Virus record (IMG/VR): IMGVR_UViG_3300042450_000877
Location: 1-50,969 of that record
Source of the DNA: a virus
DNA: 50,969 nt
Reading direction: 5' to 3' (one strand)
Each line of letters begins with the position of its first letter. The stretch's first letter is position 1. The translations under genes were made by a program, and so were the position numbers. The notes under the pieces are model-generated. The model had not been told where the DNA came from. It saw only the letters and a program-made list of their open reading frames with translations, and ran no database searches. This document shows positions 13,033 to 50,861 of this stretch, piece by piece.

Positions 13033-13037
13033 AGCTT

Positions 13038-13066: not shown

Positions 13067-13836
13067 CTATTATTTTTAATTATTTTATAGGTATTCAATA
13101 TACCGTGTTCTAATCCTATTGTTTTTATAGGTAAGTTGCTGTTACCACAATAAAATTCTAAAACATCTTTATTTTGAATATTTAAAGTTACCTTATGTGT
13201 AGATAGATTATTAATAAAATTTGCTATATTTACAAGTGTACTTTTTGTTTCATATGAACAATTTAGTGTTTTAGTAGGGTTTTCCGTATTAATATAGTAT
13301 TCCACTAATTTTGCTAAATCTTTCATATAAAAAAAGTCCATTATTTTATTGGTATGTATAATTAATGGTTCTTTATTAATATATCTAAGAATATTTGCTT
13401 TAATAAATCTTGTGTTCAATTCATTTTCATCAAAAACACTAAAAATTCTTAAATTATAAACGTTATCTGTAGAACAAATTAATTCATTTATATTTTTTTT
13501 ACTGGTACCATAAAAAGTAGCTGGATTAAAAATTTCTGCACCAGATCCAAAGTATATCATTTTTTTAAAATGAGATTTGCAAGATATAATATTATTATAT
13601 AATGCCACATTTTCATCTAATACAGAAATATCATCTGTTCTAAGTCGACTCCCACCAACTGCAGCAGTATGAATAACTACATCAAAAAATTTATTTTTAA
13701 ACCAGTTTAAACAATCTTGTTTATTAGTTATATCAAAATCATTTCTTGAAATGCTTCTGACATTATAATTTTTTTTTAAATGATGACAAAGACTCTTACC
13801 AATATAACCATTACCACCTGTAATTAAAATATTCAT
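13054..13836 (-). CDS. NAD-dependent epimerase/reductase, GDP-fucose-synthase-like
   Basis: Short extended-SDR protein (260 residues). It has N-terminal 'ILITGGNGYIGKSLCHHL' (GxxGxxG), 'FDVVIHTAAVGGSRLRTDD' and 'FGSGAEIFNPATFYGTSKKN' with Tyr-x3-Lys. The AAxVGG segment and 'DITNKQDCLNWFKN' recall GDP-L-fucose synthase, which converts GDP-4-keto-6-deoxymannose to GDP-fucose. That would complement gmd at 11402 and the fucosyltransferase-like genes upstream. The family is broad, and the protein is shorter than typical fucose synthase (about 310-320), so another nucleotide-sugar reductase is possible. It is the last gene of the island, ATGA-coupled to the transketolase-like gene. Confidence 0.72.
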   Translation of the reverse strand: MNILITGGNGYIGKSLCHHLKKNYNVRSISRNDFDITNKQDCLNWFKNKFFDVVIHTAAVGGSRLRTDDISVLDENVALYNNIISCKSHFKKMIYFGSGAEIFNPATFYGTSKKNINELICSTDNVYNLRIFSVFDENELNTRFIKANILRYINKEPLIIHTNKIMDFFYMKDLAKLVEYYINTENPTKTLNCSYETKSTLVNIANFINNLSTHKVTLNIQNKDVLEFYCGNSNLPIKTIGLEHGILNTYKIIKNNSCII

Positions 13837-14315
13837 TTTTTAAGATTAATATAAGTTGGACAAGGATCATTTATAATACTATTAAAATTAATTTGTAATT
13901 GATCACTATCTATTGGATGCATTTTTCTAATATTTTTGAATGACTGCATAATTTTTTTATCATCATCTGCCCAATGTGAAAATCCAAGATAACCATAATC
14001 TTTGTCTCTACCACCACCAACAATATTTACTGAAATATTTTCATGATCAATGTAATTTCTAATCATTTCAAATGGGCGATATATCGCAAATGGTGTAATA
14101 GAATATACAAATGGAATTTTACCTTCCATAGCCAATCCAATTCCCATGCCCATCATGGTCATTTCTGACGATCCTATATTTAAAAATCTACCTTTATTTT
14201 GAAATTTATCTCTTATTTTATCCCATAAACCATACCCCAAATCAGCAGTTATTAAGTAAACATTTTTATTTACTTCCATCTCATTATATAATAATTCTGC
14301 AAAGTCTTTTCTCAT
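13833..14315 (-). CDS. Transketolase-like pyrimidine-binding subunit (short)
   Basis: The 160-residue sequence aligns by eye with the central PYR domain of transketolase: 'LITADLGYGLWDKIRDKF' (like ADL), 'RFLNIGSSEMTMMGMGIGLAMEGKIPFVY' with the Glu of GSSEM in the place of the cofactor-activating Glu, and 'FAIYRPFEMIRNYI'. The C-terminal third domain of transketolase (about 130 residues) is absent. With the gene upstream (14323-14946) it forms a split, minimal thiamine-diphosphate enzyme. Two-carbon ketol transfer onto a sugar is the family reaction; the substrate here is unknown. It overlaps the SDR gene by 4 nt. Confidence 0.8.
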   Translation of the reverse strand: MRKDFAELLYNEMEVNKNVYLITADLGYGLWDKIRDKFQNKGRFLNIGSSEMTMMGMGIGLAMEGKIPFVYSITPFAIYRPFEMIRNYIDHENISVNIVGGGRDKDYGYLGFSHWADDDKKIMQSFKNIRKMHPIDSDQLQINFNSIINDPCPTYINLKK

Positions 14316-14322
14316 TTTATCC

Positions 14323-14946
14323 TCAATTATTTAATGATTCAATTCCCTGATTATAATTCTCTTCATTCATTATATGATAATGTGCATTCAATCCTTTTAA
14401 AAACGGAAATGCTTCTACAGAAGTTTTATGAATTATTATAGAAGGTAAAAAACATTTAAGTCTGGTTATAAGATAATCTTGATCAATTTCCATATATGCA
14501 GCATATCCATTTACATTTACATGTATTTCAATATTACAAATATTTTGTTCATAAATTGTTTTTAATGTTTCCCACACACTTCCTTCTGCACATTCTCCAT
14601 CACTAATGAGAACATAAACTTTTTTATTTGGATCAGCAATAGCTCTTCCTAAAGCTATACTAATACCAAGACCTAAACTTCCAGTAGAACAATAAATTTT
14701 ATTTTGTTCATCCCAATGTGGGTGACCTCCATGCTTTAAGAATAATGCCTCTGCATTAATATCATAATGCTTTTCAAGACATGCATATAATGCAACAGCT
14801 GCATGACCTGATGACAGAATAAAAATATCGTCTTTATTCATTTTAGAATAAATTGAATCAATTATATCTACAGAAGAAAAATAACTACCTAAATGACTCA
14901 ATTTATTTTTATATGCAATATTTAATATAATTTTTTTTAAATTCAT
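14323..14946 (-). CDS. Transketolase-like thiamine-diphosphate-binding subunit
   Basis: N-terminal transketolase domain as a separate protein (207 residues, versus about 270 in split transketolases). Landmarks: 'HLGSYFSSVDIIDSIY', 'FILSSGHAAVALYACLE', 'GGHPHWDEQ', 'STGSLGLGISIALGRAIA' and the ThDP/metal motif 'VLISDGECAEGSVWETL', with the closing Asn in 'HVNVNGYAAY'. Key His and Asp-Gly-Glu positions are kept. It sits 7 nt before its partner. Placement among deoxy-sugar genes suggests sugar-nucleotide modification rather than central metabolism. A 129-nt gap upstream holds no convincing gene. Confidence 0.83.
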   Translation of the reverse strand: MNLKKIILNIAYKNKLSHLGSYFSSVDIIDSIYSKMNKDDIFILSSGHAAVALYACLEKHYDINAEALFLKHGGHPHWDEQNKIYCSTGSLGLGISIALGRAIADPNKKVYVLISDGECAEGSVWETLKTIYEQNICNIEIHVNVNGYAAYMEIDQDYLITRLKCFLPSIIIHKTSVEAFPFLKGLNAHYHIMNEENYNQGIESLNN

Positions 14947-15075
14947 TTGATTTGGCTTTCAATCTGGTATTATATAGAATACCTTTAATCAATATATTTT
15001 CACGATGTATACCAGACATAATTCAAAAACATTATCCACCACCAAATAATCCACTTATTATTTTTAACATATAAT

Positions 15076-16029
15076 TTACCAAATAAAATTGTTTTTATAG
15101 TAATCTGCAATACTTTGAATTTCGGTATCAAAGTTTTCTTCTGGTTTCCATCCAAGTGATGTTAATTTAGAATCATCTAAGGCATAACGAACATCTTGAC
15201 CAGGACGGCTGTATGAATAATCAATATGACGATATATATCATTTTCTTGAATACCCAATGAAACTAAAAGTTTGTGTATTGTACTTATATTACTTTGTTC
15301 ATACCCACCACAAATATTAAAAATTTCATTTTTTGCATTGGATTCAATTATAGTAATAACTGCTCGTGCGGTATCTTTTGCATGTAACCAGTTTCTAATT
15401 GGGGTTCCACCATTGTGAAGAGGAATTTTTCTTCCTAAAGTGATATATTTGCAAGTTTTTGGTATTAATTTTTCTACATATTGACCAATACCATAATTAT
15501 TTGTTGGACGCAAAATTATATATGGTAAGTTATACGTTCTTGACCATGCCATTATTAACATATCTGCAGCAGCTTTTGATGCAGAATATGGATTCGATGG
15601 TTTCAAAATATCTGTTTCTATGTGGGCTCCTTCAGTAATATCACCGTACACTTCATCAGTACTAAAATGTATTAAAGTTGGAACCTTGCCATTTTCTTGT
15701 CTATAATTTTTTATCATCTCTAAAAGATTATGTACACCGTTTATATTTGATAATATAAAATCATCACTATTAACAATAGAGTTTCCTACATGAGTCTCTG
15801 CTGCAGTATTAATTATATAATCACAATCATATAAAAATGTCAAATCATTAATGTCGCATTTAACAAATGAAAAATTTTTATGTGCTTGAAATTCTTGCAA
15901 AAGCTGATCATTAGCTGCATATGTTATCTTGTCAACTCCTTTTACAAACCAACCTTTATCTAAGCATAAACGAGTTACATATGATCCTATAAATCCTAAA
16001 CAACCTGTAATATACACCACTTTAGTCAT
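15076..16029 (-). CDS. RmlB-like nucleotide-sugar 4,6-dehydratase
   Basis: Extended SDR, 317 residues. It has 'VYITGCLGFIGSYVTRLCLDKGW' (GxxGxxG) and 'IINTAAETHVGNSIVNSDDF', with 'NINGVHNLLEM' next. 'HFSTDEVYGDI' is the hallmark Thr-Asp-Glu catalytic triplet of dTDP-glucose 4,6-dehydratases. Then come 'NPYSASKAAADMLI' with Tyr-x3-Lys, 'LRPTNNYG', and 'GGTPIRNWLHAKDTARA'. It probably makes an NDP-4-keto-6-deoxyhexose; dTDP-glucose is the usual substrate, but the nucleotide cannot be read from sequence. Its product type is what the RfbH-like enzyme at 18835 would act on. It overlaps the upstream glycosyltransferase by 8 nt. Confidence 0.87.
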   Translation of the reverse strand: MTKVVYITGCLGFIGSYVTRLCLDKGWFVKGVDKITYAANDQLLQEFQAHKNFSFVKCDINDLTFLYDCDYIINTAAETHVGNSIVNSDDFILSNINGVHNLLEMIKNYRQENGKVPTLIHFSTDEVYGDITEGAHIETDILKPSNPYSASKAAADMLIMAWSRTYNLPYIILRPTNNYGIGQYVEKLIPKTCKYITLGRKIPLHNGGTPIRNWLHAKDTARAVITIIESNAKNEIFNICGGYEQSNISTIHKLLVSLGIQENDIYRHIDYSYSRPGQDVRYALDDSKLTSLGWKPEENFDTEIQSIADYYKNNFIW

Positions 16030-16831
16030 AAATTTCCATTGCTTTTAAATTTGGGTTTATTGCCCGAGAAAAATAGTTAACATTAGATGGACCACAGCAA
16101 AATAAATAATCAACATTTGACAAAATGTATGATTCAACAATAACATCCTCGGCAATTTTATATTGATATTCAAAAGATCTATTACGAGTCCATCTTTGTT
16201 CATACCAAGGCATATGTAAAGGCGTTCCGTCGTTAAAACTTCTTATTGCATCATAAGATATTACCTTAGCACCATAATAACTTTTTGCAATTTCAAATCT
16301 ACTATTTTCGTCAGAGCAAATAAAAATTTTATCGTAATTGTTCACTACTTTATCAATTTCAAAAAAATAATCTTTCATATTTTTTTTCTGAGGGTGATCT
16401 GTACCACGAAAATGTAAACCAAGTATTTTAAGATTTGTAAAATTTTCTTTTACAAAATTATCAATTTTAATTTTAATATTAGTATTTAACACAAAGTATT
16501 GTTTAATAATTGAATTAAACATTATTCTTCTATTATGAATTTCTTCAAATGTTTGAGGTAAAATATCTCGCCATATATATTCTGTAGTTTGACTATTAAT
16601 TAATCCAACTCCTTTTAATATGTTATCTTGGGTGGGATAATTTACTGAATGTGGTTGTTCAAAAAAATAATTCCATATATTATCATCAGGATTTACTTTA
16701 TATATACTGTCTGTAAAATCAATATAATATTTTTGATTTGGGTGATGTAAAATAGCTCGGATTACCTGCCATAAACATCCACCCATTCCACAAAACTCTT
16801 CTGGTTTAATTATTATAAATTTATCACTCAT
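16022..16831 (-). CDS. Fucosyltransferase-like GT-B enzyme with HxRGTD motif
   Basis: A 269-residue protein with 'GGCLWQVIRAILHHPNQKYYIDF' near the N-terminus and 'ILGLHFRGTDHPQKKN' in the middle. The H-x-R-G-T-D signature is shared by NodZ/FUT8-type alpha-1,6-fucosyltransferases and protein O-fucosyltransferases, where the Arg contacts GDP-fucose. C-terminal 'IAEDVIVESYILSNVDYLFCCGPSNVN' matches the usual downstream motif. Donor GDP-fucose is suggested by family and by gmd in the same region; the acceptor is unknown. It overlaps both neighbours by a few bases. Confidence 0.72.
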   Translation of the reverse strand: MSDKFIIIKPEEFCGMGGCLWQVIRAILHHPNQKYYIDFTDSIYKVNPDDNIWNYFFEQPHSVNYPTQDNILKGVGLINSQTTEYIWRDILPQTFEEIHNRRIMFNSIIKQYFVLNTNIKIKIDNFVKENFTNLKILGLHFRGTDHPQKKNMKDYFFEIDKVVNNYDKIFICSDENSRFEIAKSYYGAKVISYDAIRSFNDGTPLHMPWYEQRWTRNRSFEYQYKIAEDVIVESYILSNVDYLFCCGPSNVNYFSRAINPNLKAMEIYD

Positions 16832-17502
16832 AGTTCAATAGTATTTAACAATTTATTCTTTTCCTGAAATTGATGATAAAAACCATCAGTATGTAAATCT
16901 TCTGGTCGTCCTTTTCCATGAAAACCAAAACAATTGTTCAAATTTAGTTCGCATTCGGGAATGTTAGATTCCAAAGAAAACTTCATAGCAACTTCTACTG
17001 GAGCATATTTACAGTTATTTTGAATAAAATAGTCATAATAGGTATTAGTTAACTCACCATCGTCGCACGTATTCATAAATGTAAGATGCTTGGTTAATTG
17101 TATAAATTTATTACTTTTTAAAACAAATCCACCATTTCCAACTCGATTTCGTCTTCCTTCCCACTTCCAAGGAGCTCCAATATAATCATATTTGAGAAAT
17201 TGGTCTGACCATAAATGTGGGTTAATTACAAAACCGTCATCATGTATTCCTAGATAATAATCACTTTTTATTATATCAGGTAATTCTGTATACGTGAATC
17301 TAGAACTATCCAAATAACTTTTTAGTTCAGTTTTAATAAATTTAATATTACTTGGAAGTTTATCTGGTTTTTTATTGCTTACTAATATCATTTCAGCAAA
17401 ATCAATATCCTTAGAACTATATAAAAGAGCTTTTATACTCTGTATGGGATTTACACAGTTATAAGAAAGAATAGTAATGTTTTTTAATTGCAACTTATTC
17501 AT
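16828..17502 (-). CDS. DUF5672-like putative glycosyltransferase
   Basis: A 224-residue protein containing 'YDYIGAPWKWEGRRNRVGNGGFVLKS', given here by its landmarks YDYIGAPW and RVGNGGF, which are typical of DUF5672 proteins found in polysaccharide clusters. 'YYLGIHDDGFVINPHLW' could supply the Asp pair that binds the nucleotide sugar. No membrane segment is seen, so it is cytoplasmic. ATG overlaps the downstream neighbour in the usual 4-nt manner. Transferase activity is inferred from family context, not demonstrated. Confidence 0.72.
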   Translation of the reverse strand: MNKLQLKNITILSYNCVNPIQSIKALLYSSKDIDFAEMILVSNKKPDKLPSNIKFIKTELKSYLDSSRFTYTELPDIIKSDYYLGIHDDGFVINPHLWSDQFLKYDYIGAPWKWEGRRNRVGNGGFVLKSNKFIQLTKHLTFMNTCDDGELTNTYYDYFIQNNCKYAPVEVAMKFSLESNIPECELNLNNCFGFHGKGRPEDLHTDGFYHQFQEKNKLLNTIEL

Positions 17503-18194
17503 ATATAATTTTTAAAACATTCATTAAAAATACGTACACGTTCATTATTTGGAAGCCCAGTAGCATGCACCAAAAAATCACCGGGGTTCCATGGACGTGG
17601 TGGTGTTGGTTTATTTCCCCAAATTTCTTTTTTTACTATATCAACTGAAGGAACAGCATTTAAAAATTTATGTTCCAACACTTTTATGTATGGTTTAATA
17701 TCAGGAATTAAGTACATTGCATTTATTGTTGCCTGTTCTTCCGGCATAGAATAATTTTTAGAAATTTTATAAAATACATCTATAAATGACATTGTATGTG
17801 GTGTATTTTTTAAAATAAAATTACCAGTATTTAAACTATAATAGCCATTCCAATCATAAGAACAATAAAAAATAGAATTATCAATTTCAAAATTTTCTAT
17901 AGCTATATTTGGATTTGTTACTAGCGCATCTGCATCTATCCACATGATATAGTCATATTTTTCAATATTCTCAAAAACTCTTAATATTCTTAGATATCCA
18001 ATTTGTGTAGGATTGTATTTGCCAGATCTATCTGTACCAAATCCGTTTAGAGATAAAAAATCATAACCATGTTTTTTAGCATACTTTACTTTAGATTGAA
18101 AAGTTATATCAAATACTTCTTCCACGGTGTTATCGTTAGAATTTACAGAGTGGATTGAATCAGTATATCCTGTTATTATTAATGTACGTTTCAT
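17499..18194 (-). CDS. GT34-like (GMA12/MNN10-type) glycosyltransferase
   Basis: A 231-residue GT-A protein. It begins MKRTLIITGYTDSIHSVNSN, followed by 'ITFQSKVKYAKKHGYDFL'. The metal-binding 'YDYIMWIDADALVTNPNI' has the D-A-D triplet near residue 98. 'LNTGNFILKNTPHTMSFIDVFY' and 'PEEQATINAMYL' match the GT34 alpha-galactosyl/xylosyl transferase pattern, and a C-terminal 'PGDFLVHATGLPN' provides the expected His. The donor is probably UDP-galactose or similar. It belongs to the tightly packed island, overlapping the DUF5672 gene by 4 nt. Confidence 0.77.
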   Translation of the reverse strand: MKRTLIITGYTDSIHSVNSNDNTVEEVFDITFQSKVKYAKKHGYDFLSLNGFGTDRSGKYNPTQIGYLRILRVFENIEKYDYIMWIDADALVTNPNIAIENFEIDNSIFYCSYDWNGYYSLNTGNFILKNTPHTMSFIDVFYKISKNYSMPEEQATINAMYLIPDIKPYIKVLEHKFLNAVPSVDIVKKEIWGNKPTPPRPWNPGDFLVHATGLPNNERVRIFNECFKNYI

Positions 18195-18196
18195 AC

Positions 18197-18826
18197 TTAT
18201 TTTTCAAATACAAAAATACTACAACCATTCCACCAACCTTCTGCGTCTTCTTCACCATAAAAGCTTACCTGTAAGGATACTTTTAAATTAAGTTCTTTTA
18301 TTGCTCTAATGGTACCCATCTGAACTTTTGGCCAGCACCAATCATCTACCATATAGATAAATGATTTTGACATACTTAAATAATAATATTGAAGTGCCAA
18401 ATAATGGTCTAGTTCTTCATGATTTCCATCATAAAAATATGCATCTACGTCTTTAATATTTTTTTGTTGAAGATTTATTTGAAAACAATCCTCATCAATT
18501 AAATTTGGATTAGTTCCAATATTGTCTTTCCAATTATTTAAAAAATCTTCTTTTGGTGAGCCAAATTGAGAAAAATTATCTACAACCCAATAATTTAATT
18601 TATCTGTATTCCCGTGCAATGCTGCTATAGCAGTTGAACCATGCCATACACCAATTTCTAAGTAATTCTTAATAAGTTGATCTGATAAAAGACGATTGGC
18701 AAATCGTTTATAATCTTTACCAGAAAAACCTTTAATTTCTAAGATTTTATCAGTAATATTTGCTGGGTTTTCATTATTCAAAGCTTTAAAAACAGTATTT
18801 TTTAATTGTTCAGTTCTTGTAGTCAT
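18197..18826 (-). CDS. Class I SAM-dependent methyltransferase
   Basis: A 209-residue protein with SAM-binding motif I 'YLEIGVWHGSTAIAAL', acidic motif II 'YWVVDNFSQFG', and 'DAYFYDGNHEELDHYLALQYY' and 'YMVDDWCWPKVQMGT'. It resembles the Methyltransf_24 group found in polysaccharide clusters. It probably O- or N-methylates a sugar of the glycan. AAGGA lies before the ATG (18826). The start is only 8 nt from the stop of the RfbH-like gene, so they are probably one operon. The target sugar cannot be told. Confidence 0.8.
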   Translation of the reverse strand: MTTRTEQLKNTVFKALNNENPANITDKILEIKGFSGKDYKRFANRLLSDQLIKNYLEIGVWHGSTAIAALHGNTDKLNYWVVDNFSQFGSPKEDFLNNWKDNIGTNPNLIDEDCFQINLQQKNIKDVDAYFYDGNHEELDHYLALQYYYLSMSKSFIYMVDDWCWPKVQMGTIRAIKELNLKVSLQVSFYGEEDAEGWWNGCSIFVFEK

Positions 18827-18834
18827 TTTTATCC

Positions 18835-20142
18835 TTATATTAGTTTAAAAAAATTATTTAACGTCACTTCAATGTAATTCAATTGCTCTATTGTTATAAC
18901 TGGACTAGTTCCTAAGAAGAATGTATCTGTAGTAACCTTTCGAGCATTTGGGTAATTATTTATAACATCTTCAGTATCCATCATATTTTCATATGCAGGT
19001 TGTAACATAATATTTCCTGCAAAATATGGTCTTGTTTGAATTTTATGATCCTCAAAATAATTGATAATATCTTTTCTCTTAAATCTATTATTATCTTTTA
19101 TAGTTATAGCAAATGCAAACCAACTAGGATCAGAATGTTCAGTTGCTTTTGGTAAAATAAAATATTCTTCATATTTTGAAAATATATTATATAATCTTTT
19201 ATGATTAGCTTTTCTAAGTTCATGTATCTTAGGAAGCTTTTTCATTTGAGCAAGTCCAATGGCTGCTTGCAATTCGATTGGTTTTAAATTGTAACCAATT
19301 TCATCATAGACATACTTATGATCAAAAGTTTCATCTGGTAAGGAAGGTAACCAATTTGAAAATCTTTTTCCACAGCATCCATTCTTTAGTGTATTTGCTT
19401 TTTGACCAACGCAAAAGCAACCTCTTCCCCATTCACGAAAACTTCTAATTACAGTTTCTTGTTCTTGTGTATTACATGCAATAAATCCACCTTCACCCAT
19501 TGTCATGTGATGAGCAGGATAAAACGAGCAACTAGACATAATACCAAATGAACCTAATGGGTTTCCTCTGTATGATGAACCTAAAGCATCACAACAATCT
19601 TCTAAAAGAATTAAATTGTACTTATTCACTATATCCATTAATCTATCCATATTGGGTGGATTACCTAAGACATGTGCAAAAATAAGTACCTTGCATCCTT
19701 CTTTTGCTTTTTGTTCTACTTGATCTAAATTTAAATTTAATGTATCTAAATCAATGTCAACAAAAACAGGCTCAAATCCAACTTGAAATATAGGATTGAT
19801 GGTTGTTGGAAATCCAGCAATTGGGGTTATTACTTTTGTTCCTTTAGGAAGATTATATAATCGTTTTGATGTCAATGCCGAGAACATCAATAAATTAGAA
19901 CTACTTCCGCTATTTGTTAAAATACCAAATTTTTTATTAAAAAGATCTGGAAATGTATTTTCAAATTTAATACCATTTTGCCCTAAAACTAACCACCCTT
20001 GCAATAAAGCTGATATGGCTTCAACATATTCTTCTGAATCAAAATAAGGTCCAGCATACTGGACCCAATCGTGACCTGGAATCCATATCTTCTTTGGTTT
20101 TTGATTAATATAATTTTCTACAGCTTTTAATATATCATCCAT
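18835..20142 (-). CDS. RfbH/E1-like PMP-dependent 4-keto-6-deoxysugar 3-dehydrase with Fe-S ligands
   Basis: DegT/DnrJ/EryC1-fold protein of 435 residues, matching RfbH/E1 in length. 'CSFYPAHHMTMGEGGFIAC' has His where aminotransferases have the PLP-binding Lys, the signature of PMP-dependent 3-dehydrases (E1, RfbH, ColD). 'GRGCFCVGQKANTLKNGCCGKRF'-type region (landmarks GRGCFCVG and NGCCGKRF) carries Cys residues matching the [2Fe-2S] ligands of E1, which ColD lacks. 'LTNSGSSSNLLMFSAL' and 'VLIFAHVLGNPPNMDRL' complete the fold. E1 removes the C3 hydroxyl of CDP-4-keto-6-deoxyglucose together with reductase E3; no E3 is seen here. The nucleotide carrier in this phage is not known. Confidence 0.88.
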   Translation of the reverse strand: MDDILKAVENYINQKPKKIWIPGHDWVQYAGPYFDSEEYVEAISALLQGWLVLGQNGIKFENTFPDLFNKKFGILTNSGSSSNLLMFSALTSKRLYNLPKGTKVITPIAGFPTTINPIFQVGFEPVFVDIDLDTLNLNLDQVEQKAKEGCKVLIFAHVLGNPPNMDRLMDIVNKYNLILLEDCCDALGSSYRGNPLGSFGIMSSCSFYPAHHMTMGEGGFIACNTQEQETVIRSFREWGRGCFCVGQKANTLKNGCCGKRFSNWLPSLPDETFDHKYVYDEIGYNLKPIELQAAIGLAQMKKLPKIHELRKANHKRLYNIFSKYEEYFILPKATEHSDPSWFAFAITIKDNNRFKRKDIINYFEDHKIQTRPYFAGNIMLQPAYENMMDTEDVINNYPNARKVTTDTFFLGTSPVITIEQLNYIEVTLNNFFKLI

Positions 20143-20182
20143 ATAAGTCTCAATATTATATCGTGTATTATGTAATATGCAA

Positions 20183-20860
20183 TTAAATTAGTTGCAATTC
20201 TTTATTTGATTGAAGTTCTATACCATTTAGATCATATATTTTGTTAAATGTACCAGTATGTGTATAAGAATATTTTGATGTATCATCTAAATTAAAATAA
20301 TCTTCTAATTTTGTTGGACAAACACATTCAAAATTTTCTAATCGTACTATTATATTATCTACCGGACCATCATAACCATTTTTTTCAATATATGCACACA
20401 ACTTTTGAGCTCCAGTTTTTGTAATACAATATGCTGCTAAACCCTCACACATATAATTTTTAAATTTATTAATATGTTTTAAATTTTGATCCCAGTTAGT
20501 ATAATCTAATTTATTTAAAACATCAGTTTTACTTTGATAATGTGCTGTTATTGCCTGTAGATATAAAAAATCAATTTTAGTATAATCAAAAGTTTTTAAA
20601 TTTTCCATTTTAAATGTATCAGATGGTAAACAATCATCTTCACATATTAAATATACCATTTCATCAACTTCTTTGGCTATCTCTTTCCATAGTCTGTAAT
20701 GAGCCATAAGTGCGGCTATTTCTCCAAATCTAACCCATGTTCGATTTGTATACTTCATCATATTAGTTTTATTGATAAAAAAGGATAAATTATCAAATAT
20801 ATAATATGGAATATCATCTTGATAAAATACTATATCATTTGGAGATACCCCCATTACCAA
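20183..20860 (-). CDS. GT25-like glycosyltransferase, N-terminus continues upstream of ATG
   Basis: From ATG at 20860 the protein is 225 residues. It contains 'GEIAALMAHYRLWKEIAKE' and 'MVYLICEDDCLP', the GT25 core with an acidic D-D motif, and later 'CEGLAAYCITKTGAQKL'. The same frame continues upstream for 28 codons and reads K-T-K-IISLPGATERQEKIK, the usual N-terminus of GT25 enzymes, but has no ATG, GTG or TTG at the expected place (see 20861-20944). A TTG lies two codons before the ATG. The true start may therefore be a rare codon, or the gene may be damaged. Role: transfer of a sugar, often galactose, in LPS-type glycans. Confidence 0.75.
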   Translation of the reverse strand: MVMGVSPNDIVFYQDDIPYYIFDNLSFFINKTNMMKYTNRTWVRFGEIAALMAHYRLWKEIAKEVDEMVYLICEDDCLPSDTFKMENLKTFDYTKIDFLYLQAITAHYQSKTDVLNKLDYTNWDQNLKHINKFKNYMCEGLAAYCITKTGAQKLCAYIEKNGYDGPVDNIIVRLENFECVCPTKLEDYFNLDDTSKYSYTHTGTFNKIYDLNGIELQSNKELQLI

Positions 20861-20944
20861 ATCATAATCTATATTTTTAAAATTTGTTTTAATTTTTTCT
20901 TGCCGTTCTGTGGCACCTGGTAACGAAATTATTTTAGTTTTTAT
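20861..20944 (-). other. In-frame coding extension of GT25 gene without canonical start
   Basis: The 28 codons read ISLPGATERQEKIKTNF and onward, in frame with the downstream ATG. At the natural start (20942-20944) the codon is ATA, preceded by ATT; with ATG there the protein would begin MKTKIISLPG. An AAAGGA ribosome-site-like sequence lies 9-12 nt upstream. The next in-frame stop upstream is a TAA inside the preceding gene. The upstream gene's stop overlaps the ATA, mirroring the ATGA overlaps elsewhere in the island. Confidence 0.6.
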
Positions 20945-21807
20945 AATGATATAACATCCTTTAATTGTTTTTTAATATTATTCAAAGATTCAACAACATC
21001 ATAATTGAATAGTGGTGCATTTTTTATTTTAAGATATAAATCTTCGTTTGAATCAATATATTTTACATATTCTAAACATTCTTCAAATGATTTAAAATGG
21101 TTTACGTAAATAAAACAATCTGGATTAAAATCATGAAGAACATATTCATCACCCCAATAAATTGGAATACATCCTGCTGTTTTTGCATGTAAAAACTTTT
21201 CAGTAACATATCCTATTTTATGTGTATTTTCAAACGCCATAGAAAATCTATATTTACATATAGCATCATATTTTGTTTGTTCGTTTCTTTGTGTGTCACC
21301 GTTACCAAATGGTAAACCAAATCCAGCTGTTGGTTTGTGTGTATTAAGCAGTTGAAGAAATTTAACTCTATTATTGTGAATAGCAGAAAAAGGAGCTATA
21401 CAAAATTCATCTTTTGGTGCGTGTAACCATTTATTGTTATCAAGTTCACTTGGGGTTAGAACTGGTATCGGGTTTTTTTGATTTTGCAAATTATAAAAAT
21501 TAATATAAAAATACCAAATAGGAAATCTAACATTTTTTAAATCGTATCTAAATGGGTCAAAAGATAAATGATAATCACCATCTTTATATTGAACCTCTTT
21601 TGGTTCTGGCATGCATGTTAAGATTTTAGTTTTAGATCGATCTATCTCTTTTGGAACATAATTTTCTGCAACTAAACATAAATTACAATCATGTATATTA
21701 TTTGTTAATACTAAATCATCACCATAGATATCTTTTAATAAAGACAATAAAAGATTTTCTTCATAATTAAAATCAGGCCAAAAATTATTAATACTTAATC
21801 GAATCAC
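20941..21807 (-). CDS. GT10-like alpha-1,3/4-fucosyltransferase
   Basis: A 288-residue protein whose C-terminal half has the GT10 donor-binding signature: 'YRFSMAFENTHKIGYVTEKF' followed by 'HAKTAGCIPIYWGD'. The first half carries the variable acceptor domain. GT10 enzymes transfer L-fucose from GDP-fucose. Start is GTG at 21807, with GGAG 5 nt upstream. It is followed by the GT25 gene and preceded by another GT10-like gene, which it overlaps by 20 nt. No membrane anchor is visible, as is usual for bacterial GT10 enzymes. Confidence 0.82.
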   Translation of the reverse strand: MIRLSINNFWPDFNYEENLLLSLLKDIYGDDLVLTNNIHDCNLCLVAENYVPKEIDRSKTKILTCMPEPKEVQYKDGDYHLSFDPFRYDLKNVRFPIWYFYINFYNLQNQKNPIPVLTPSELDNNKWLHAPKDEFCIAPFSAIHNNRVKFLQLLNTHKPTAGFGLPFGNGDTQRNEQTKYDAICKYRFSMAFENTHKIGYVTEKFLHAKTAGCIPIYWGDEYVLHDFNPDCFIYVNHFKSFEECLEYVKYIDSNEDLYLKIKNAPLFNYDVVESLNNIKKQLKDVISL

Positions 21808-22618
21808 AAATACTCCTATAAATCATATCATCTGCGCTGTTTAATTGACAGACACGATCAAAATTAATTTTTACAGCTTCAGCCATTGACTTATAAAGAT
21901 ATGAATTCAATAAATCAAAAGACTCAAGTTCTTCAATAAAAATAATTCCATTTAAATCAAAATCCTCACCTATGGATTTATCACCATAGTATATAGGGAT
22001 GGTACCAGTAGCAAAACAATCTGTTATTTTTTCAGTATAATACTTTGGATATATACTATTTTCTACAACAATAGAAAACATATAATCTTTTAATCCATCC
22101 AATTTATCAGGAATAAACTTATAATCTCTTCCATAAATGTGATCTTTTATTTGTGGATTATTTTTTAATTGTTCAAATAATTCCATTCTTTTAATATGAC
22201 CAGATGTAAATTTTTTAAAACTTGTTATATACGAACATAATTGTGTTTTTTCAAATATATGAGGATTTTTAATCCATGGCATATTTGATGCAGGTGGATT
22301 ATATTTAAAAAAATCTGGATCAATACTTATTATTCTATGATCATTGGTAAAAATATTTTTATATTTTGATTTTAAAACATCTTTATTAGTTGTAATTCCC
22401 ATCAATAGTTGTGGAATTATTTCTGATGATTCACCTAACCATCCATATTTTGGTCCACTATAGCCATCATTCATATATCTAAAAATAGAATTATCAAAAT
22501 AAACAACTGGTGAATTATCATTGGGATAAGAATTAAAAATCCATTCAAAAGTTTTTGGGGGATTATTTAAACACGACCCACCAGTAAAAGCTTCAGTAAA
22601 AATATGTAATTTATTCAT
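21788..22618 (-). CDS. Second GT10-like fucosyltransferase
   Basis: From ATG at 22618, which overlaps the GT11 stop as ATGA and is therefore preferred over the in-frame ATG at 22639. The C-terminal part 'YMFSIVVENSIYPKYYTEKI' and 'CFATGTIPIYYGDKSI' is the GT10 signature. The N-terminal part is unlike that of the 20941 protein, so the two probably use different acceptors. 'FDNSIFRYMNDGYSGPKYGWLGE' is a conserved-looking aromatic segment I cannot assign. Probable donor: GDP-fucose. Confidence 0.78.
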   Translation of the reverse strand: MNKLHIFTEAFTGGSCLNNPPKTFEWIFNSYPNDNSPVVYFDNSIFRYMNDGYSGPKYGWLGESSEIIPQLLMGITTNKDVLKSKYKNIFTNDHRIISIDPDFFKYNPPASNMPWIKNPHIFEKTQLCSYITSFKKFTSGHIKRMELFEQLKNNPQIKDHIYGRDYKFIPDKLDGLKDYMFSIVVENSIYPKYYTEKITDCFATGTIPIYYGDKSIGEDFDLNGIIFIEELESFDLLNSYLYKSMAEAVKINFDRVCQLNSADDMIYRSICDSIKY

Positions 22619-23403
22619 ATAATGATCCAATTTTTGCAATAAATATCAGACCAATTTTTTGGCATTCCTTGTGCAGCACCAAACCACTGACTTGGTGCAA
22701 TCACTTTTTTACTTTCACTGAGCCATGCTCCCCACCAACTAAAAGAACTATTTGCAATTATATGATAATCGCACATAGTCATTAAACACATATCAATATT
22801 TTGATTTTTTGTATCTGGAATACAAAAAGGTCTTTTTAAATCTTTAAAAAGTTCTGCAGCTTTTTCATTATCATCACTAATAATATAAAGAAAAGCATTT
22901 TCTGGAATGTTGTTTAACGCTTCTTCATAATATTGCATAGTACATATAGGATGCTTATCTGTTAAATTGGTATAATCACCTAACCGTATATGCATGGCAA
23001 CTGCTAATTTTTTACCAATTTGCCGTATTATCTCTGCTTGAGTTTTAATTTGTGGAGTAAATTCAAATTCTTTTAATAAATCTTGTCTATAATCAATAAA
23101 ATATTTTTCACTTTGAAAATATCCAACAATATCAGTATTGTCAGATATACCAAATATACCAGCATTATATGTAAAATTATGTTCTTGGGCTCTATTAATA
23201 TTTTTAATTTCTGAGCTATCTTTTGCAGTTAAATTTAAAAAAGCATCATCCAAACAAAAATTTAAATATGGATTATTTGATTTAGATTTATATGGAATAC
23301 CATATTCGTATCCTCTAGTTTTAGCAATAGCAAATAATGTTGCATATTGAAACATCTGATTTCCCATACGCCCATAATTACCAAGTCTATTAAAAGTAAT
23401 CAT
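22615..23403 (-). CDS. GT11 alpha-1,2-fucosyltransferase
   Basis: Clear GT11 protein, 262 residues. The N-terminal 'GNYGRMGNQMFQYATLFAIA' is the donor-binding G-x-GNQxFQYA motif. 'AMHIRLGDYTN' gives the HxRxGDY motif. 'DYHIIANSSFSWWGAWLSES' is the third conserved motif. It transfers L-fucose from GDP-fucose onto galactose-type acceptors through an alpha-1,2 link. Coupled by 4-nt ATGA overlaps to the genes on both sides. With gmd and the SDR at 13054 it strongly implies a fucosylated glycan. Confidence 0.92.
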   Translation of the reverse strand: MITFNRLGNYGRMGNQMFQYATLFAIAKTRGYEYGIPYKSKSNNPYLNFCLDDAFLNLTAKDSSEIKNINRAQEHNFTYNAGIFGISDNTDIVGYFQSEKYFIDYRQDLLKEFEFTPQIKTQAEIIRQIGKKLAVAMHIRLGDYTNLTDKHPICTMQYYEEALNNIPENAFLYIISDDNEKAAELFKDLKRPFCIPDTKNQNIDMCLMTMCDYHIIANSSFSWWGAWLSESKKVIAPSQWFGAAQGMPKNWSDIYCKNWIII

Positions 23404-24035
23404 TGAAAGTTAGAATTTCTATTCTGTAAAGGCTTATCTGTTAACGTTTGCCACTTATTAGCATTTTCACGATCATTAGATTGGTACACAAGGGGGCTAT
23501 TTGGTGTGTAGACCTTATATTGATATTGAATTGAAGCAGTTCCCACATCCCATGGTTTATCTAATTCATATAAACAATGTTGACCAACTTCAGACATGTG
23601 TTTACGGAATTGTGGTGTAACATACAAAATTGCATGAGCAGCTAATATTCCACCAATACGTAAATAATTTTGATGAGCCTGAGAAGTATGATAAAAAACA
23701 TTTCCATGCGAAATACCCAAATATACTCCATCGGAGTCATCTGGAATTTCAATAACTGGATTAAAATTTTCTACAAATTCAACATCATCTTCCAAAATTA
23801 AAAGAGGTGACGTGTGTTGCATATTTTCTAATATGTCAATATGTGACTGACCACAACCTCTATAATGGGCAATAGTAGGATCAGTTCCTTGGGGGGGTGG
23901 AATAATCAAACCAGATTTTCTATGAGTATTTTTAAACCCATATTTTTCAAATCTTTGTTTCATAGTTTCTGCATTTTTTGTAGCAGAATCCAAATTAATC
24001 CAAACGACTGGTATTTCTCGTAAATCAATAATCAT
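23400..24035 (-). CDS. GT25-like glycosyltransferase, first gene of glycan island
   Basis: A 211-residue protein: 'IPVVWINLDSATKNAETMKQRF' resembles the GT25 N-terminus, 'GCGQSHIDILENMQHTSPLLILEDDVEF' (landmarks GCGQSHIDILE and LILEDDVEF) the core motif with its acidic pair, and 'GGILAAHAILYVTPQF' the later conserved stretch. It probably transfers a hexose onto the glycan. It is the promoter-proximal gene of the island: TTGACA-16 nt-TATATT (24050-24077) lies just upstream with a GAGG ribosome site. Confidence 0.75.
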   Translation of the reverse strand: MIIDLREIPVVWINLDSATKNAETMKQRFEKYGFKNTHRKSGLIIPPPQGTDPTIAHYRGCGQSHIDILENMQHTSPLLILEDDVEFVENFNPVIEIPDDSDGVYLGISHGNVFYHTSQAHQNYLRIGGILAAHAILYVTPQFRKHMSEVGQHCLYELDKPWDVGTASIQYQYKVYTPNSPLVYQSNDRENANKWQTLTDKPLQNRNSNFQ

Positions 24036-24576: not shown

Positions 24577-26079
24577 GTGGATGTAGAAGTTGAATCTGTA
24601 GACGAAGTTCGTTACTATATAAAAACAGAAAAGGGAGTCAAACAAGAACTGAGAGATTATTTCTCGTTCATGATTCCTGGTGCTGAGTATATGCCATTGT
24701 TTAAACGGCGTATATGGGATGGTAAGATACGATTATTTGATATTTTATCTTCCACCCTACCAAGAGGTCTTAAATCTTACCTGAGTAAGTTTTGTAAAGA
24801 TCGTCAATATACTTTAAATATTAAAGAAAGCAAGAATCCCCTATGCATAACGGAGGAGAAACTTCTGGACTTCTACAATACCCTAAAAGTTTCTGTAAAA
24901 AAACAGCGGGTCAAAATGCACCCCCACCAAAGCCAAGCAATTCTACACGCTATCAACGCTCACCGGTGTGTAATAATATCTCCGACAGGTTCTGGAAAAA
25001 GTTTAATAATCTACGTCTTGCTCCGGTATCTACTATCCGTAATAAAATCAGACAGAAAGATTTTAGTTTTGGTTCCAACGGTAGGGCTGGTTACACAGAT
25101 GGAAACCGACTTCTTTGATTACTCAAAAGCAGATCCTTCCTGGCTATCAAGAAAATATATTCATAAAATTAGTGCAGGGCTTGAAAAAGATAGCAACAAA
25201 CAAATAATTGTTTCTACTTGGCAGTCTATATACAAGTTACCACGAGAATGGTTTGATCAGTTTGATGCTATCTTCTTTGATGAGTGTCACCAAGCCAAGG
25301 CAGAATCAATTAACTTAATTGGTCAGAAGTTAACCAAAGCGTGGTTTCGTATTGGTACTACAGGCACCCTAGATCAAACACAAGCACATCGTCTGAGCAT
25401 AGAAGGCATTCTAGGACCTGCTGTACAATTTATTCAGACAAAGAGCCTAATGAACAAAGGATTGCTTGCTACTCTTGCTGTTGACTGTATTGTACTCAAG
25501 TACACAGATCAAGAGAAGCAGGATATGAAAAAGCAAAAATATCCTGATGAAATCAAGACTATAATAAGTAATACTAGGAGGAATGAATTTGTCAAAGAAC
25601 TCGCAATTCACACCAAAGGCAATACACTTATCCTCTTCAACTACGTCGAAGGACACGGGAAACCTCTCCACGCTCTCATTGAGGCAGCAGGAACAGATAA
25701 GAAGGTATATCTTATTCACGGAAAAACAGAAAGTGAAGCAAGAGAATCTATTCGCCGCATCGTGGATACACAAACTAATGCCATATTGGTTGCGAGTTAC
25801 GGTACTACTAGTACTGGCATTAACATTGTCAACATTGATAATCTTATACTCGCCTCTCCTACTAAATCTGTAATTCGTTTACTGCAGAGTATTGGTAGAG
25901 GTTTACGAGTATCTTCTAAAAAGAAAACTTTGAAAGTTTATGACATTGTTGATGACCTTTGTTACAAGTCATACAAGAACCATGTTTATAGGCATTTTGA
26001 AGAACGAATCAAAATTTATAAAAAAGAAAAATTTGATTACAGAATAATGTCCATGCCACTACCTTCCGATGATAAATAA
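24577..26079 (+). CDS. uvsW: Recombination helicase UvsW
   Basis: SF2 helicase of 500 residues (T4 UvsW: 503). The N-terminal domain contains 'LFKRRIWDGKIRLFD', as in T4. Helicase motifs in order: Walker A SPTGSGKS near 135-142, 'LVPTVGLVTQM', DECH near 235-238, 'GTTGTLD', and motif VI 'LLQSIGRGLR' near 440. It unwinds branched DNA and R-loops and drives the switch to recombination-dependent replication. GTG at 24577 is the only start before the conserved N-terminus, since a TGA lies directly upstream. It follows uvsY with an 18-nt gap. Confidence 0.93.
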   Translation: MDVEVESVDEVRYYIKTEKGVKQELRDYFSFMIPGAEYMPLFKRRIWDGKIRLFDILSSTLPRGLKSYLSKFCKDRQYTLNIKESKNPLCITEEKLLDFYNTLKVSVKKQRVKMHPHQSQAILHAINAHRCVIISPTGSGKSLIIYVLLRYLLSVIKSDRKILVLVPTVGLVTQMETDFFDYSKADPSWLSRKYIHKISAGLEKDSNKQIIVSTWQSIYKLPREWFDQFDAIFFDECHQAKAESINLIGQKLTKAWFRIGTTGTLDQTQAHRLSIEGILGPAVQFIQTKSLMNKGLLATLAVDCIVLKYTDQEKQDMKKQKYPDEIKTIISNTRRNEFVKELAIHTKGNTLILFNYVEGHGKPLHALIEAAGTDKKVYLIHGKTESEARESIRRIVDTQTNAILVASYGTTSTGINIVNIDNLILASPTKSVIRLLQSIGRGLRVSSKKKTLKVYDIVDDLCYKSYKNHVYRHFEERIKIYKKEKFDYRIMSMPLPSDDK

Positions 26080-47650: not shown

Positions 47651-48070
47651 ATGGCGTATAGAACTAAATATGTTCCTTTAAATCAACAAAAATATGTGGG
47701 GAATCCAGATTCTATCCATTGCCGTTCTTTATGGGAACGCAGCGTATGCAAATTTTGTGATGGAAATGAGAACATTGTAAAATGGTCATTTGAAGAAATT
47801 ATGGTTCCGTACCATAATCCGGTAGATAATAAGATTAGAAACTACATTCCTGATTTTCTTGTTCAAATCAAAAACAACGATCAAGTTGAATCGTGGATGA
47901 TAGAAGTAAAACCAAAAAAACAAACTATGTTAAAAGAAAATGCATCTAAAAAAGAAAAATTAACATGGATTGTCAATGTTGCCAAATGGAAAGCAGCAGA
48001 GTTATACTGCCAGAAACACAATTTTGTGTTTAAACTTTTAACAGAAAAAGAATTATTCTCCAATGCCTAA
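47651..48070 (+). CDS. 4: Head completion nuclease-like protein gp4
   Basis: I start it at ATG 47651 (MAYRTKYVPLNQQKYVGNPD); an in-frame ATG at 47630 would add seven residues (MILINIL) and overlap the promoter. 'HCRSLWERSVCKFCDGNENI', 'VKWSFEEIMVPYHNPVDNKI', 'NYIPDFLVQI' and 'WMIEVKPKKQT' show the TnsA/PD-(D/E)xK nuclease-like core (Asp of PDF, Glu-x-Lys) of T4 gp4/50. gp4 completes filled heads before tail joining. It begins a late + strand operon. Confidence 0.9.
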   Translation: MAYRTKYVPLNQQKYVGNPDSIHCRSLWERSVCKFCDGNENIVKWSFEEIMVPYHNPVDNKIRNYIPDFLVQIKNNDQVESWMIEVKPKKQTMLKENASKKEKLTWIVNVAKWKAAELYCQKHNFVFKLLTEKELFSNA

Positions 48071-48629
48071 TTTAGATAATACCATATCAAGTTTAAAAAA
48101 TTATTTTACTCAACATAAAGGTATTCAAAGACCTAACAGATATTCAATATCATTTTTGAATACACCAAGTTCTCCCTTTTTAGATCCAGAATACGTAGTA
48201 GATGAATTTCTTTTAAATCAACGAGCCATAGATCATGTTGCTGACGATTTATCCGGCTATGGTGTTGGACGATTGATTCCAAGAAGCCAAAGTTTTGCAC
48301 ATGGGTTTGCTATAACATTTCCAGTAACCGGTGATAATAGAACGTTATTGTTTTTTAACGATTGGTTTAATGCTATCTATAGTGGTGGTTATTCTGTAGG
48401 AAGTTATAATACTCCATTTAAATTAGCATACTATGATGATATTGTAAAAAACTGTAAAGTAATATTAAATTTATTAGATTTGAATGGAAATAGAGTTTCT
48501 AGGTATACCTTTAATGAAGTGTTTCCTGTTGAAACAACTCCACTCAGAGTTAGTAGCGTTGCACCAGATCCATATTTGCGTTACACGGTAGTGTTTAACT
48601 ATAGAGATTATAAAAACGAAAGATTATAA
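48063..48629 (+). CDS. 54: Tube-fold protein, probable tail tube initiator (gp54-like)
   Basis: A 188-residue protein with the tube fold: 'RPNRYSISFLNTPSSPFLDP', 'RLIPRSQSFAHGFAITFPVT', 'DNRTLLFFNDWFNAIYSGGY' and C-terminal 'VAPDPYLRYTVVFNYRDYK'. It is distinct from the two gp19 copies. Its place next to gene 48 (across the divergent promoter) and 26/51 suggests the gp54 tube initiator, which is longer in T4 (320). A minor tube protein is the alternative. It overlaps gene 4 by 8 nt. Confidence 0.65.
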   Translation: MPNLDNTISSLKNYFTQHKGIQRPNRYSISFLNTPSSPFLDPEYVVDEFLLNQRAIDHVADDLSGYGVGRLIPRSQSFAHGFAITFPVTGDNRTLLFFNDWFNAIYSGGYSVGSYNTPFKLAYYDDIVKNCKVILNLLDLNGNRVSRYTFNEVFPVETTPLRVSSVAPDPYLRYTVVFNYRDYKNERL

Positions 48630-48634
48630 TTATT

Positions 48635-49300
48635 ATGAATTTATTAGATGAATTGAATGTATATTTTCCAAAATACGAAGTAGTATTACCTGTAAGTAAA
48701 TTAAAAGTATTATTTACACCATTTAAAGTAAAAGATGCTAAAAATCTTTCTATTATTTTACAAGAAAATAATAAAAAATTAGCTCTAATTGCTCTTCATG
48801 AGATTATAAAAAATAATACCAATAATATTGATATTAATGAATTATGTATTGCAGATGCAGAATATTTGTTTTTACATATTAGATCAAAAAGTGTAGATGA
48901 ACATATATCGGTTATATTTGAAAAAAACAAATATGAATTAAATATCTCAGATATAGTTTGTGTAAATTCATTAAATAAAAAAATTGTTAATATAAACAAT
49001 AATATTTTAATTGAATTAGAGTCACCTATTTTTTCTGATCTTCTTAAATTAAATTCTTTTGAAACTAATGATTTTTATAAAGTTTGTATTAAAAAAATAA
49101 TTGTTCAAAAAGAAATTTATGACTTTAATAAATTTGTACCAGATGAAATTAAAGAAATAATAAACAACCTTCCAATATCAGTGTTAAAAGAATTTGATAA
49201 CTTTTTATCAAATCAACCTAGACTTACAGCCACAATCAAATTACTAGACGGTTCTGAAAAGGAGGTAAATGGGGTATTAGATTTTTTTATCTTTCGGTAA
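48635..49300 (+). CDS. 26: Baseplate hub assembly protein gp26
   Basis: A 221-residue protein of the T4 gp26 baseplate family: 'VSKLKVLFTPFKVKDAKNLS', 'LCIADAEYLFLHIRSKSVDE' are the diagnostic stretches. A gp26-type protein is an assembly factor for the baseplate hub. The last codons (GAT TTT TTT ATC TTT CGG TAA) hold a slippery run of seven T (49282-49288), and the stop codon lies within a perfect hairpin. A -1 shift would extend the protein by 67 residues into the gp51-like frame (49288-49491), giving a 285-residue product. The gene is strongly AT-rich. Confidence 0.88.
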   Translation: MNLLDELNVYFPKYEVVLPVSKLKVLFTPFKVKDAKNLSIILQENNKKLALIALHEIIKNNTNNIDINELCIADAEYLFLHIRSKSVDEHISVIFEKNKYELNISDIVCVNSLNKKIVNINNNILIELESPIFSDLLKLNSFETNDFYKVCIKKIIVQKEIYDFNKFVPDEIKEIINNLPISVLKEFDNFLSNQPRLTATIKLLDGSEKEVNGVLDFFIFR

Positions 49301-49318
49301 GATACTTTGATCTTACCG
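49282..49318 (+). other. Programmed -1 frameshift signal at end of gene 26
   Basis: Slippery heptamer T TTT TTT (49282-49288, in the correct phase for gene 26), a 6-nt spacer, then a perfect 9-bp hairpin: CGGTAAGAT (49295-49303), loop ACTTTG, ATCTTACCG (49310-49318). The zero-frame UAA stop is inside the 5' arm. The -1 frame then stays open to 49491. This matches the architecture of known bacterial -1 frameshift sites. Confidence 0.8.
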
Positions 49319-49491
49319 ATTATTATAAATCAAATTTTAAATTAATAAATACGTTTTCTTGGAATATTACAGAAATAGAAAACATGATGGTATGGGAGAG
49401 AGAAATCTATATCAATTTATTATTAGAAAATTTGCAAACACAAAATTCGTCACAATCAAATAATAACCCATTTAATATAATAAATCAATGA
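49288..49491 (+). CDS. 51: gp51-like C-terminal extension reached by -1 frameshift
   Basis: Frame -1 relative to gene 26, 67 codons. It reads 'YLSVRYFDLTDYYKSNFKLI', then 'NTFSWNITEIENMMVWEREI' and 'YINLLLENLQ', with a short polar tail. The 'EIENMMVWEREIYINLL' helix is typical of small gp51 proteins and of the T part of lambda-like tail chaperones. Its TGA stop overlaps the next ATG (ATGA at 49488), the coupling seen between real genes. An internal ATG at 49384 could give a 35-residue product, but no ribosome site precedes it, so frameshifting from gp26 is favoured. Confidence 0.75.
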   Translation, partial: YLSVRYFDLTDYYKSNFKLINTFSWNITEIENMMVWEREIYINLLLENLQTQNSSQSNNNPFNIINQ

Positions 49492-49979
49492 ATCCAGATA
49501 TAAACCAAAACACGTTTGATTTAGATTTAAGAGCTGAACAATCAAATTTTGATCAAGCATTAAATACTTCAACCAATTCAGAACAAAGATCTTATGTGTT
49601 TGAAATGGATCAAATCAAACAACCAGAAAATAATGTTGTTTCACTAACAGCACAATCACCAAGAATTCCAGACAGAGAAGTTATAAATCCGATGCAATCT
49701 AGTATGGCATCGTATGTTTCATTAAATACACCGATTGTACAAAGTGCTGAGACTATTCAATCAGGAATTCTTAATAGGGCATCCGGACAAGAAGAAATAT
49801 ATTCTGAAATGAATGGAATGTATAGTGCGATGCAAGAATTAAATTCTAAAATTGGTATGAAACAAGATTTAGTAAGCAATGATGTAGGTCGTACAGAATC
49901 ACGAACAACAAATATGCAAAAGAACGTAATGTTCTTTGATCGATTGGATAGAACTTTATCTCGTCCTTCATGGGGATAA
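49488..49979 (+). CDS. Hypothetical protein after 26/51 (163 aa)
   Basis: A 163-residue Gln/Asn/Ser-rich protein starting MNPDINQNTFDLDLRAEQSN, with helical stretches ('EEIYSEMNGMYSAMQELNSK') and no hydrophobic core. It is the last gene of the + strand late operon, coupled to the 51 frame by an ATGA overlap and followed at once by a strong hairpin terminator. In tailed phages, tape-measure genes often follow the frameshift pair, but this protein is far too short. Function unknown; tail assembly or virion role by position. Confidence 0.65.
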   Translation: MNPDINQNTFDLDLRAEQSNFDQALNTSTNSEQRSYVFEMDQIKQPENNVVSLTAQSPRIPDREVINPMQSSMASYVSLNTPIVQSAETIQSGILNRASGQEEIYSEMNGMYSAMQELNSKIGMKQDLVSNDVGRTESRTTNMQKNVMFFDRLDRTLSRPSWG

Positions 49980-50004
49980 AAAAAGCCCCTTGCGGGGCTT
50001 TTTT
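49979..50004. terminator. Bidirectional terminator between converging operons
   Basis: AAAAAAGCCCC, loop TTGC, GGGGCTTTTTT: a GC-rich 5-bp core flanked by A and T runs, so it acts as a Rho-independent terminator in both directions. It ends the 4-54-26/51 operon and gene 32. The stop codons of both genes touch it. Confidence 0.92.
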
Positions 50005-50861
50005 CAATCATTCTCCATTTCGGAGAAGTACTTTAGAGGATCCTTTTCCTCAATATCTTCACTGACTACCGTATCAGTGACATCATCTTCAATACTCTTT
50101 GACTCGGTGAACTGAGCACGAATATCGTCTCCGGTTGCCTTCTTGAGTCGTGCCTTGAGTTCATCATAACTCTTGAACTGACTCTTGTCGGTAAACTCCT
50201 TGAGGGCGTATTGCTTCTTCCAAAGTTCTTCTAGCTTTTTATCATCACCACCAAGAAGAGGAGCAGGAGCAGCAAACTCTGAACGATCATAATTCACGTA
50301 TCCACCGACATTGCGAATCTTAATCTTGAAATCTGCACCAGTCCAAAAGTTGAATGGATCAATTGCAGTCTCATCCTTAAATTCGGGATGAGCAAGTGCT
50401 TGAATCTTCTGGAAGATCTTGGTGCCATACTGATAAAGGAAAACCTTTCCTTTATTCTCTGGATTTGCTGGATCTTCAACAACAAGAATGTTTGAAATGT
50501 AAGTCAACTTACGCTTACGATTACGTGCAATATTCTTGTCATCCTCAATACCACTATTCCACAGTTCGGTATTTGCTTCACAAACAGGGCACTTCTCTCC
50601 AAGAGTCGTTGGGCAGTTTTCAAACAACCAACCACCCTTGCCCTTAAAGGCATGGCTGTAAACTGAAACAAAGGGACTATCTTCTCCTGCAATCTCAGGA
50701 AGGAATCGAATTACTGCATAACCGTTTCCAGCCTTGTCAATACCAGGCTTCCAAAGACGATCATCTTTGTAACTCTCCTTTGATGTGAGCTTATCCATAC
50801 GCTCGGTTAGGGATGCGACTGAGTTCTTACTCTTCTTCTTGAAATCTGAAAAATTTGCCAT
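50004..50861 (-). CDS. 32: Single-stranded DNA-binding protein gp32
   Basis: A 285-residue protein (T4: 301). The basic N-terminus 'MANFSDFKKKSKNSVASLTE' holds the LAST-type motif for cooperative binding. The zinc-binding residues are His70 and Cys83, Cys91, Cys94 ('ENCPTTLGEKCPVCEANTEL'), as in T4 (His64, Cys77, Cys87, Cys90). The OB fold follows, and the tail is acidic ('SIEDDVTDTVVSEDIEEKDP') and contacts other replication proteins. It coats single-stranded DNA in replication and recombination with UvsY, UvsX and UvsW. It has a strong early promoter and a leader hairpin. Confidence 0.96.
   Translation of the reverse strand: MANFSDFKKKSKNSVASLTERMDKLTSKESYKDDRLWKPGIDKAGNGYAVIRFLPEIAGEDSPFVSVYSHAFKGKGGWLFENCPTTLGEKCPVCEANTELWNSGIEDDKNIARNRKRKLTYISNILVVEDPANPENKGKVFLYQYGTKIFQKIQALAHPEFKDETAIDPFNFWTGADFKIKIRNVGGYVNYDRSEFAAPAPLLGGDDKKLEELWKKQYALKEFTDKSQFKSYDELKARLKKATGDDIRAQFTESKSIEDDVTDTVVSEDIEEKDPLKYFSEMEND

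Follow-up and report, generated by a model that had tools for sequence, protein, structure and literature searches.

According to a review published in 2016 (PMC5009743), conservation of the tail-chaperone frameshift is widespread among long-tailed phages, T4 excepted. In phage lambda, the G and T genes, located immediately 5′ of the tape measure gene H, give rise to a short chaperone, gpG, and to a minor form extended in the -1 frame, gpGT, which are absent from the virion (PMC5009743). Phage P2, with a contractile tail, also produces short (E) and extended (E+E′) forms using a poly-T -1 heptamer (T_TTT_TTG in NC_001895), in this case immediately 5′ of the tape measure gene T. Here we describe a comparable arrangement at the end of gene 26 of an uncultured T4-related virus, IMG/VR record IMGVR_UViG_3300042450_000877. 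The stretch analysed, referred to below as the window, covers positions 1 to 50,969 of that record. A single gene of this virus very probably supplies, by a -1 ribosomal slip, both a short and a long tail-assembly helper, the latter carrying the product of gene 51 as its C-terminal part. Tail-assembly chaperone genes of T4-like phages were reportedly identified by Vladimirov, Gautam and Davidson in 2022 (Virology 566:9-15). The passages which cite that study in two other papers attribute to it T4-like phages with one short and one long fused copy (PMC10885494) and poly-T -1 signals in T4-like phages (PMC12846349). The genes concerned, as we infer from the homology described below, are 26 and 51. 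As far as these citing passages go, the window signal is a further case of a mechanism already reported for T4-like phages, and the suggestion in the original prediction that no such signal had been described in them for the most part does not stand. The poly-T -1 signal is common to both; what appears to distinguish the present case is a new uncultured lineage, the sequence T_TTT_TTT, a strong hairpin and a conserved upstream Shine-Dalgarno-like element.

Gene 26 occupies positions 48635–49300 of the plus strand, as do all elements of the signal, and its 3′ end reads, by codon, GAT TTT TTT ATC TTT CGG TAA. The heptamer TTTTTTT (49282–49288) is in phase as T_TTT_TTT. It is followed by a 5-nt spacer (49289–49293) and a hairpin of 10 bp with a 6-nt loop (49294–49319), which includes the zero-frame stop codon TAA (49298–49300) in its 5′ arm. 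Without the outer T-A pair, the stem is a perfect 9 bp (CGGTAAGAT at 49295–49303 with ATCTTACCG at 49310–49318; written out, CGGTAAGAT-ACTTTG-ATCTTACCG, 49295–49318) and the spacer is 6 nt long. This is the form given in the original prediction, every part of which is present between 49282 and 49318. The minimum free energy of the hairpin is -13.5 kcal/mol compared with -4.9 ± 2.2 for shuffled sequences (z -3.87), and none of 200 dinucleotide shuffles matched its stability. Also as predicted, the -1 frame remains open for 67 codons and a TGA (49288–49491, with the TGA at 49489–49491) and overlaps the ATG of the next gene (49488) in an ATGA. Joined to 48635–49288, this extension gives a product of 285 aa, compared to 221 aa for the zero-frame product.

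The window includes 198 in-phase X_XXY_YYZ heptamers in 59 open reading frames (ORFs). With thresholds of -10 kcal/mol or better for the hairpin and at least 50 codons for the -1 frame, only the gene 26 heptamer combines a strong hairpin with a long -1 frame. Since it is unique in this respect and is kept in all 110 distinct junctions described below, the arrangement is beyond chance. An in-phase A_AAA_AAA at about 24897, in a helicase-like ORF (24577–26079, plus strand), precedes a 71-codon open -1 frame; the structure there is weak and the site is probably fortuitous.

Relatives were collected from IMG/VR by a search with the whole fusion (22 relatives, 55–100% identity) and by searches with a profile of the extension (the best 80 of about 600, together with 28 of the window's clade, mostly repeat contigs). 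The latter relatives were chosen by the extension alone and the heptamer was not used as a criterion. With the addition of cultured phages, the set comprises 110 distinct junctions. Of 140 loci, 137 have the extension in the -1 frame with respect to gene 26, the remaining three being T4, where it is in-frame, and two incomplete contigs in which the gp26 profile had matched the extension itself. At each of the 110 distinct junctions, 51 shows this -1 relation to 26 and an in-phase heptamer is present within the overlap: TTTTTTC in 83, TTTTTTT in 20 and TTTTTTA in 7. The overlap is scarcely longer than the heptamer in P-HM1, ACG-2014i and L050 (13 nt) and measures 10–16 nt in Aeromonas 65, PX29, Moby, Melnitz-2 and RHph_I34. 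The codon preceding the two T-rich codons is AGT, GAT, AAT, TCT or GCT, and therefore the residue changes (Ser, Asp, Asn or Ala) while the T is kept. Among nine further cultured phages of other groups read at the 26/51 junction, eight carry a T_TTT_TTN heptamer (Aeromonas 65 and PX29, Stenotrophomonas Moby, Acidovorax ACP17, Cronobacter LPCS28, Sinorhizobium phiM7, Rhizobium RHph_I34 and Methylophilales Melnitz-2). The ninth, Vibrio phage K476 (L146, around 2705–2725), shows the -1 relation with an imperfect CTT TTT G and a TAATG overlap, and may use single-tRNA slippage or reinitiation.

The sequences flanking the heptamer were compared with shuffles that preserve the -1 protein and the local codon frequencies. 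Downstream RNA is more stable than in these shuffles (mean z -1.77; control stretch -0.41), with a mean z of -2.99 in the window's clade (control +0.07). Within the clade, synonymous-codon identity along the reading frame is most in excess at codons 214–229, which correspond to the heptamer and the hairpin. Relatives present differing stems at about the same position, which suggests that the structure is selected.

A third component, absent from the original prediction, is the Shine-Dalgarno-like element AAGGAGGT (49259–49266), which ends 15 nt 5′ of the heptamer and is the sole copy in the 51-kb window. AAGGAGG is kept, as AAG GAG G, in 16 of the 17 clade members, while GAG represents 18% of the Glu codons in the window genome; the seventeenth member (L128) has lost the element and carries instead GGAGGG, 8 nt from the heptamer. 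Of 93 relatives outside the clade, 50 carry GAGGG or GGAGGG 9 nt ahead of the heptamer; GAG is used for the Glu residue at that site in 68% of cases versus 28% elsewhere in the gene. Pairing of the upstream 30 nt with the anti-Shine-Dalgarno sequence exceeds that of synonymous shuffles (mean z -1.21, control +0.22), and the same score in the window's clade reaches a mean z of -3.52 (control +0.40). In another role, AAGGAGGT could have been the start signal of a short ORF beginning at ATG 49269; this was rejected, since the ATG is not kept in the clade and is out of frame with both 26 and 51. The frameshift signal of E. coli dnaX is likewise composed of an upstream Shine-Dalgarno site, a slippery heptamer and a downstream hairpin (PMC5600365). 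The two signals share this three-part make-up; however, dnaX is an unrelated gene, the shift in the window lengthens the protein and the upstream spacing is longer in the window's clade. Among open-licence papers we found no description of an upstream Shine-Dalgarno-like element in T4-like 26/51 genes.

Could gp51 instead be a separate short protein, made by reinitiation or from a start codon of its own 3′ of gene 26? In database annotations, 51 is indeed an independent gene in many cyanophages, some relatives have an ATG directly after the stop (for example TAAGTATGG in S-CAM7 and P-SSM5), and Moby and K476 have TGATG/TAATG. In the window, however, the earliest ATG, GTG or TTG of the -1 frame is at 49384, within a conserved motif, and initiation there would yield a mere fragment; 51 thus has no usable start of its own, as originally proposed, and a separate start in the window is ruled out. 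Similarly, 62 of the 110 relatives have no such codon in the -1 frame ahead of the conserved NF motif. Moreover, an in-phase heptamer would be needless for reinitiation, T4 gp51 is a fused form of full length, and we consider a separate gp51 to be improbable. Transcriptional slippage, in which RNA polymerase would slip on the T run and mRNAs with one additional T would encode the fusion, could draw on seven consecutive T in an AT-rich genome. It is slightly less probable still, since most relatives have six T followed by C, and the kept phase, the preceding T, the hairpin and the Shine-Dalgarno-like element are needless to a polymerase. A pseudogene, a sequencing error or a chance overlap, suggested by the fact that one base would join the two frames, is refuted by the 110 distinct junctions, drawn from many samples and from cultured phages, that show the same frame relation, and has a negligible probability.

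The zero-frame product, corresponding to the N-terminal part of a putative tail-assembly chaperone, matches PF12322 (T4_baseplate; 8.7e-26) and phrog_150 (1.3e-26). By itself, the extension matches phrog_634 (annotated as baseplate hub assembly catalyst, the gp51 family; 8.5e-18), as do 53 of 53 aligned extensions; a Pfam scan of the extension returned just weak matches to unrelated families. The gp26-gp51 fusion aligns with positions 10 to 280 of the 282 of phrog_150, nearly end to end, and therefore phrog_150 already includes full-length fused members, T4 gp51 being one such match. An AlphaFold2 model of gp26 (predicted local distance difference test score, pLDDT, 88.6) has as its likeliest solved matches the HK97 chaperone 2ob9 (probability 0.47–0.57, E 0.5–0.7) and 3fgx (0.54). 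No match was obtained with gp26 in a sequence search against solved structures or with the model of the extension in Foldseek.

T4 itself has two divergent genes, 26 (208 aa) and 51 (249 aa), without a frameshift site: its gene 26 ends in GAG TTC TTT GAG and the heptamer is absent. T4 gp51 is essential for assembly and is not found in the virion (PMC3004832). Both T4 proteins are homologous to those of the window and match PF12322 (gp26, 8.8e-64; gp51, 3.9e-52), and gp51 bears the same C-terminal extension (phrog_634, 1.2e-23; E 0.00096 for gp51 207–244 aligned with the extension profile by hhalign). Judged by these matches, T4 gp26 and gp51 are paralogues, a short form and a long form carried on separate genes. 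Matches to T4 gp51 over at least 80% of its length occur in 1334 phage records, nearly always in one piece among the matches listed. The two-gene layout is also found in Aeromonas 44RR and Shewanella Thanatos-1, and the frameshift layout in other Straboviridae (KVP40, Aeromonas 65, PX29 and LPCS28). In a tree of 20 gp26/gp51 domains, the two-gene 26s form one group and the two-gene 51s another; being midpoint-rooted with long branches, this tree leaves the ancestral state unsettled. The simplest reading is that a single gene duplication may have replaced the frameshift. We place at roughly even odds the fuller scheme of a dnaX-type signal with a selected internal Shine-Dalgarno site, at spacings of about 9 nt (cyanophages) and 15 nt (the clade), together with a T4 layout produced by duplication into short and long copies.

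We strongly favour ribosomal frameshifting over its alternatives in the following form. The majority of ribosomes would terminate at TAA 49298 and release the 221-aa gp26, the short form. A minority would shift by -1 on T_TTT_TTT, aided by the downstream hairpin and probably also by the upstream AAGGAGGT, which would base-pair with 16S rRNA in the manner of E. coli dnaX, and would translate 67 more codons to give the 285-aa gp26-gp51 fusion, the long form. The two forms would constitute a chaperone pair for tail or baseplate-hub assembly, like lambda gpG/gpGT and P2 gpE/E+E′, and in T4 and its close kin they would be provided by separate paralogous genes, the short form by 26 and the long form by 51. 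Such a role is suggested by the signal, the two-form output and the protein family, and the gene 26/51 product is most likely the chaperone pair that serves tail or hub assembly in a T4-like phage. The original prediction had equated the locus with lambda G/GT and P2 E/E′: the anatomy agrees and supports an equivalent pair by analogy, but a relation in sequence was not recovered, as hhalign gave no alignment with P2 E, P2 E′ or lambda T (a weak test, with single sequences on the P2/lambda side). Since these comparisons gave no sequence link to the P2 and lambda chaperones, chaperone-like working may be proposed but membership of their family is not established.

Several observations weigh against this reading. 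No two-sided changes occur in the hairpin in the clade, so that formal covariation is unsupported, and a cyanophage group shows one; because compensatory changes of this type are nearly absent, the case for the hairpin is built on folding energy and constraint at synonymous sites. Some relatives lack a clear stem, and the comparison of junctions which the original prediction had proposed thus returned an in-phase heptamer in all 110 distinct junctions but not a universal strong hairpin. The clade element AAGGAGGT lies farther from the heptamer (15 nt) than its counterparts in other relatives (9 nt). The evidence from the fold is weak, with E values of 0.5 to 1.2 for the solved structures 2ob9 and 3fgx and a partial match in the case of 2ob9. 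Finally, the conservation tests count kin as independent although ancestry is shared, and their p-values, which assume too much independence, are to be read loosely.

The gene directly 3′ of 26/51 (49488–49979, plus strand) encodes a 163-aa protein without a Pfam or PHROG match and is not a recognised tape measure gene; no search for one elsewhere was made. In this respect the locus may differ from P2 and lambda, gene 26 not standing before a recognised tape measure gene. The 163-aa protein, which terminates in SRPSWG, is kept in the clade (L009, L014) and is perhaps a tail protein of the lineage. On its 3′ side lies gp32 on the other strand, and a terminator-like inverted repeat (AAAAAGCCCCTTGCGGGGCTTTTTT, 49980–50010) separates the two convergent genes. 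Immediately 5′ of gene 26 is a tail-tube-like protein (48063–48629, plus strand; phrog_45, 1e-14), and a similar neighbour precedes 26 in KVP40. Elsewhere in the window, the minus strand encodes a probable fibre protein of 850 aa that bears long collagen-like Gly-X-Y repeats (1245–3797), and an ORF run (11402–24035) resembling, by eye, sugar-nucleotide, glycosyltransferase and transketolase-like genes, in a T4-like phage contig.

The frameshift reading would account for the annotation of gp51 as a short gene of its own, or for its omission, in hundreds of cyanophage and marine genomes: the annotated piece would be the C-terminal end of a longer protein. The same reading would also place gp26 and gp51, the hub chaperones of T4 with a long-unclear role, beside the tail chaperones of lambda and P2. 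The relatives assembled here may provide a natural set for testing the influence of a hairpin and an internal Shine-Dalgarno site on the proportion of short to long form.
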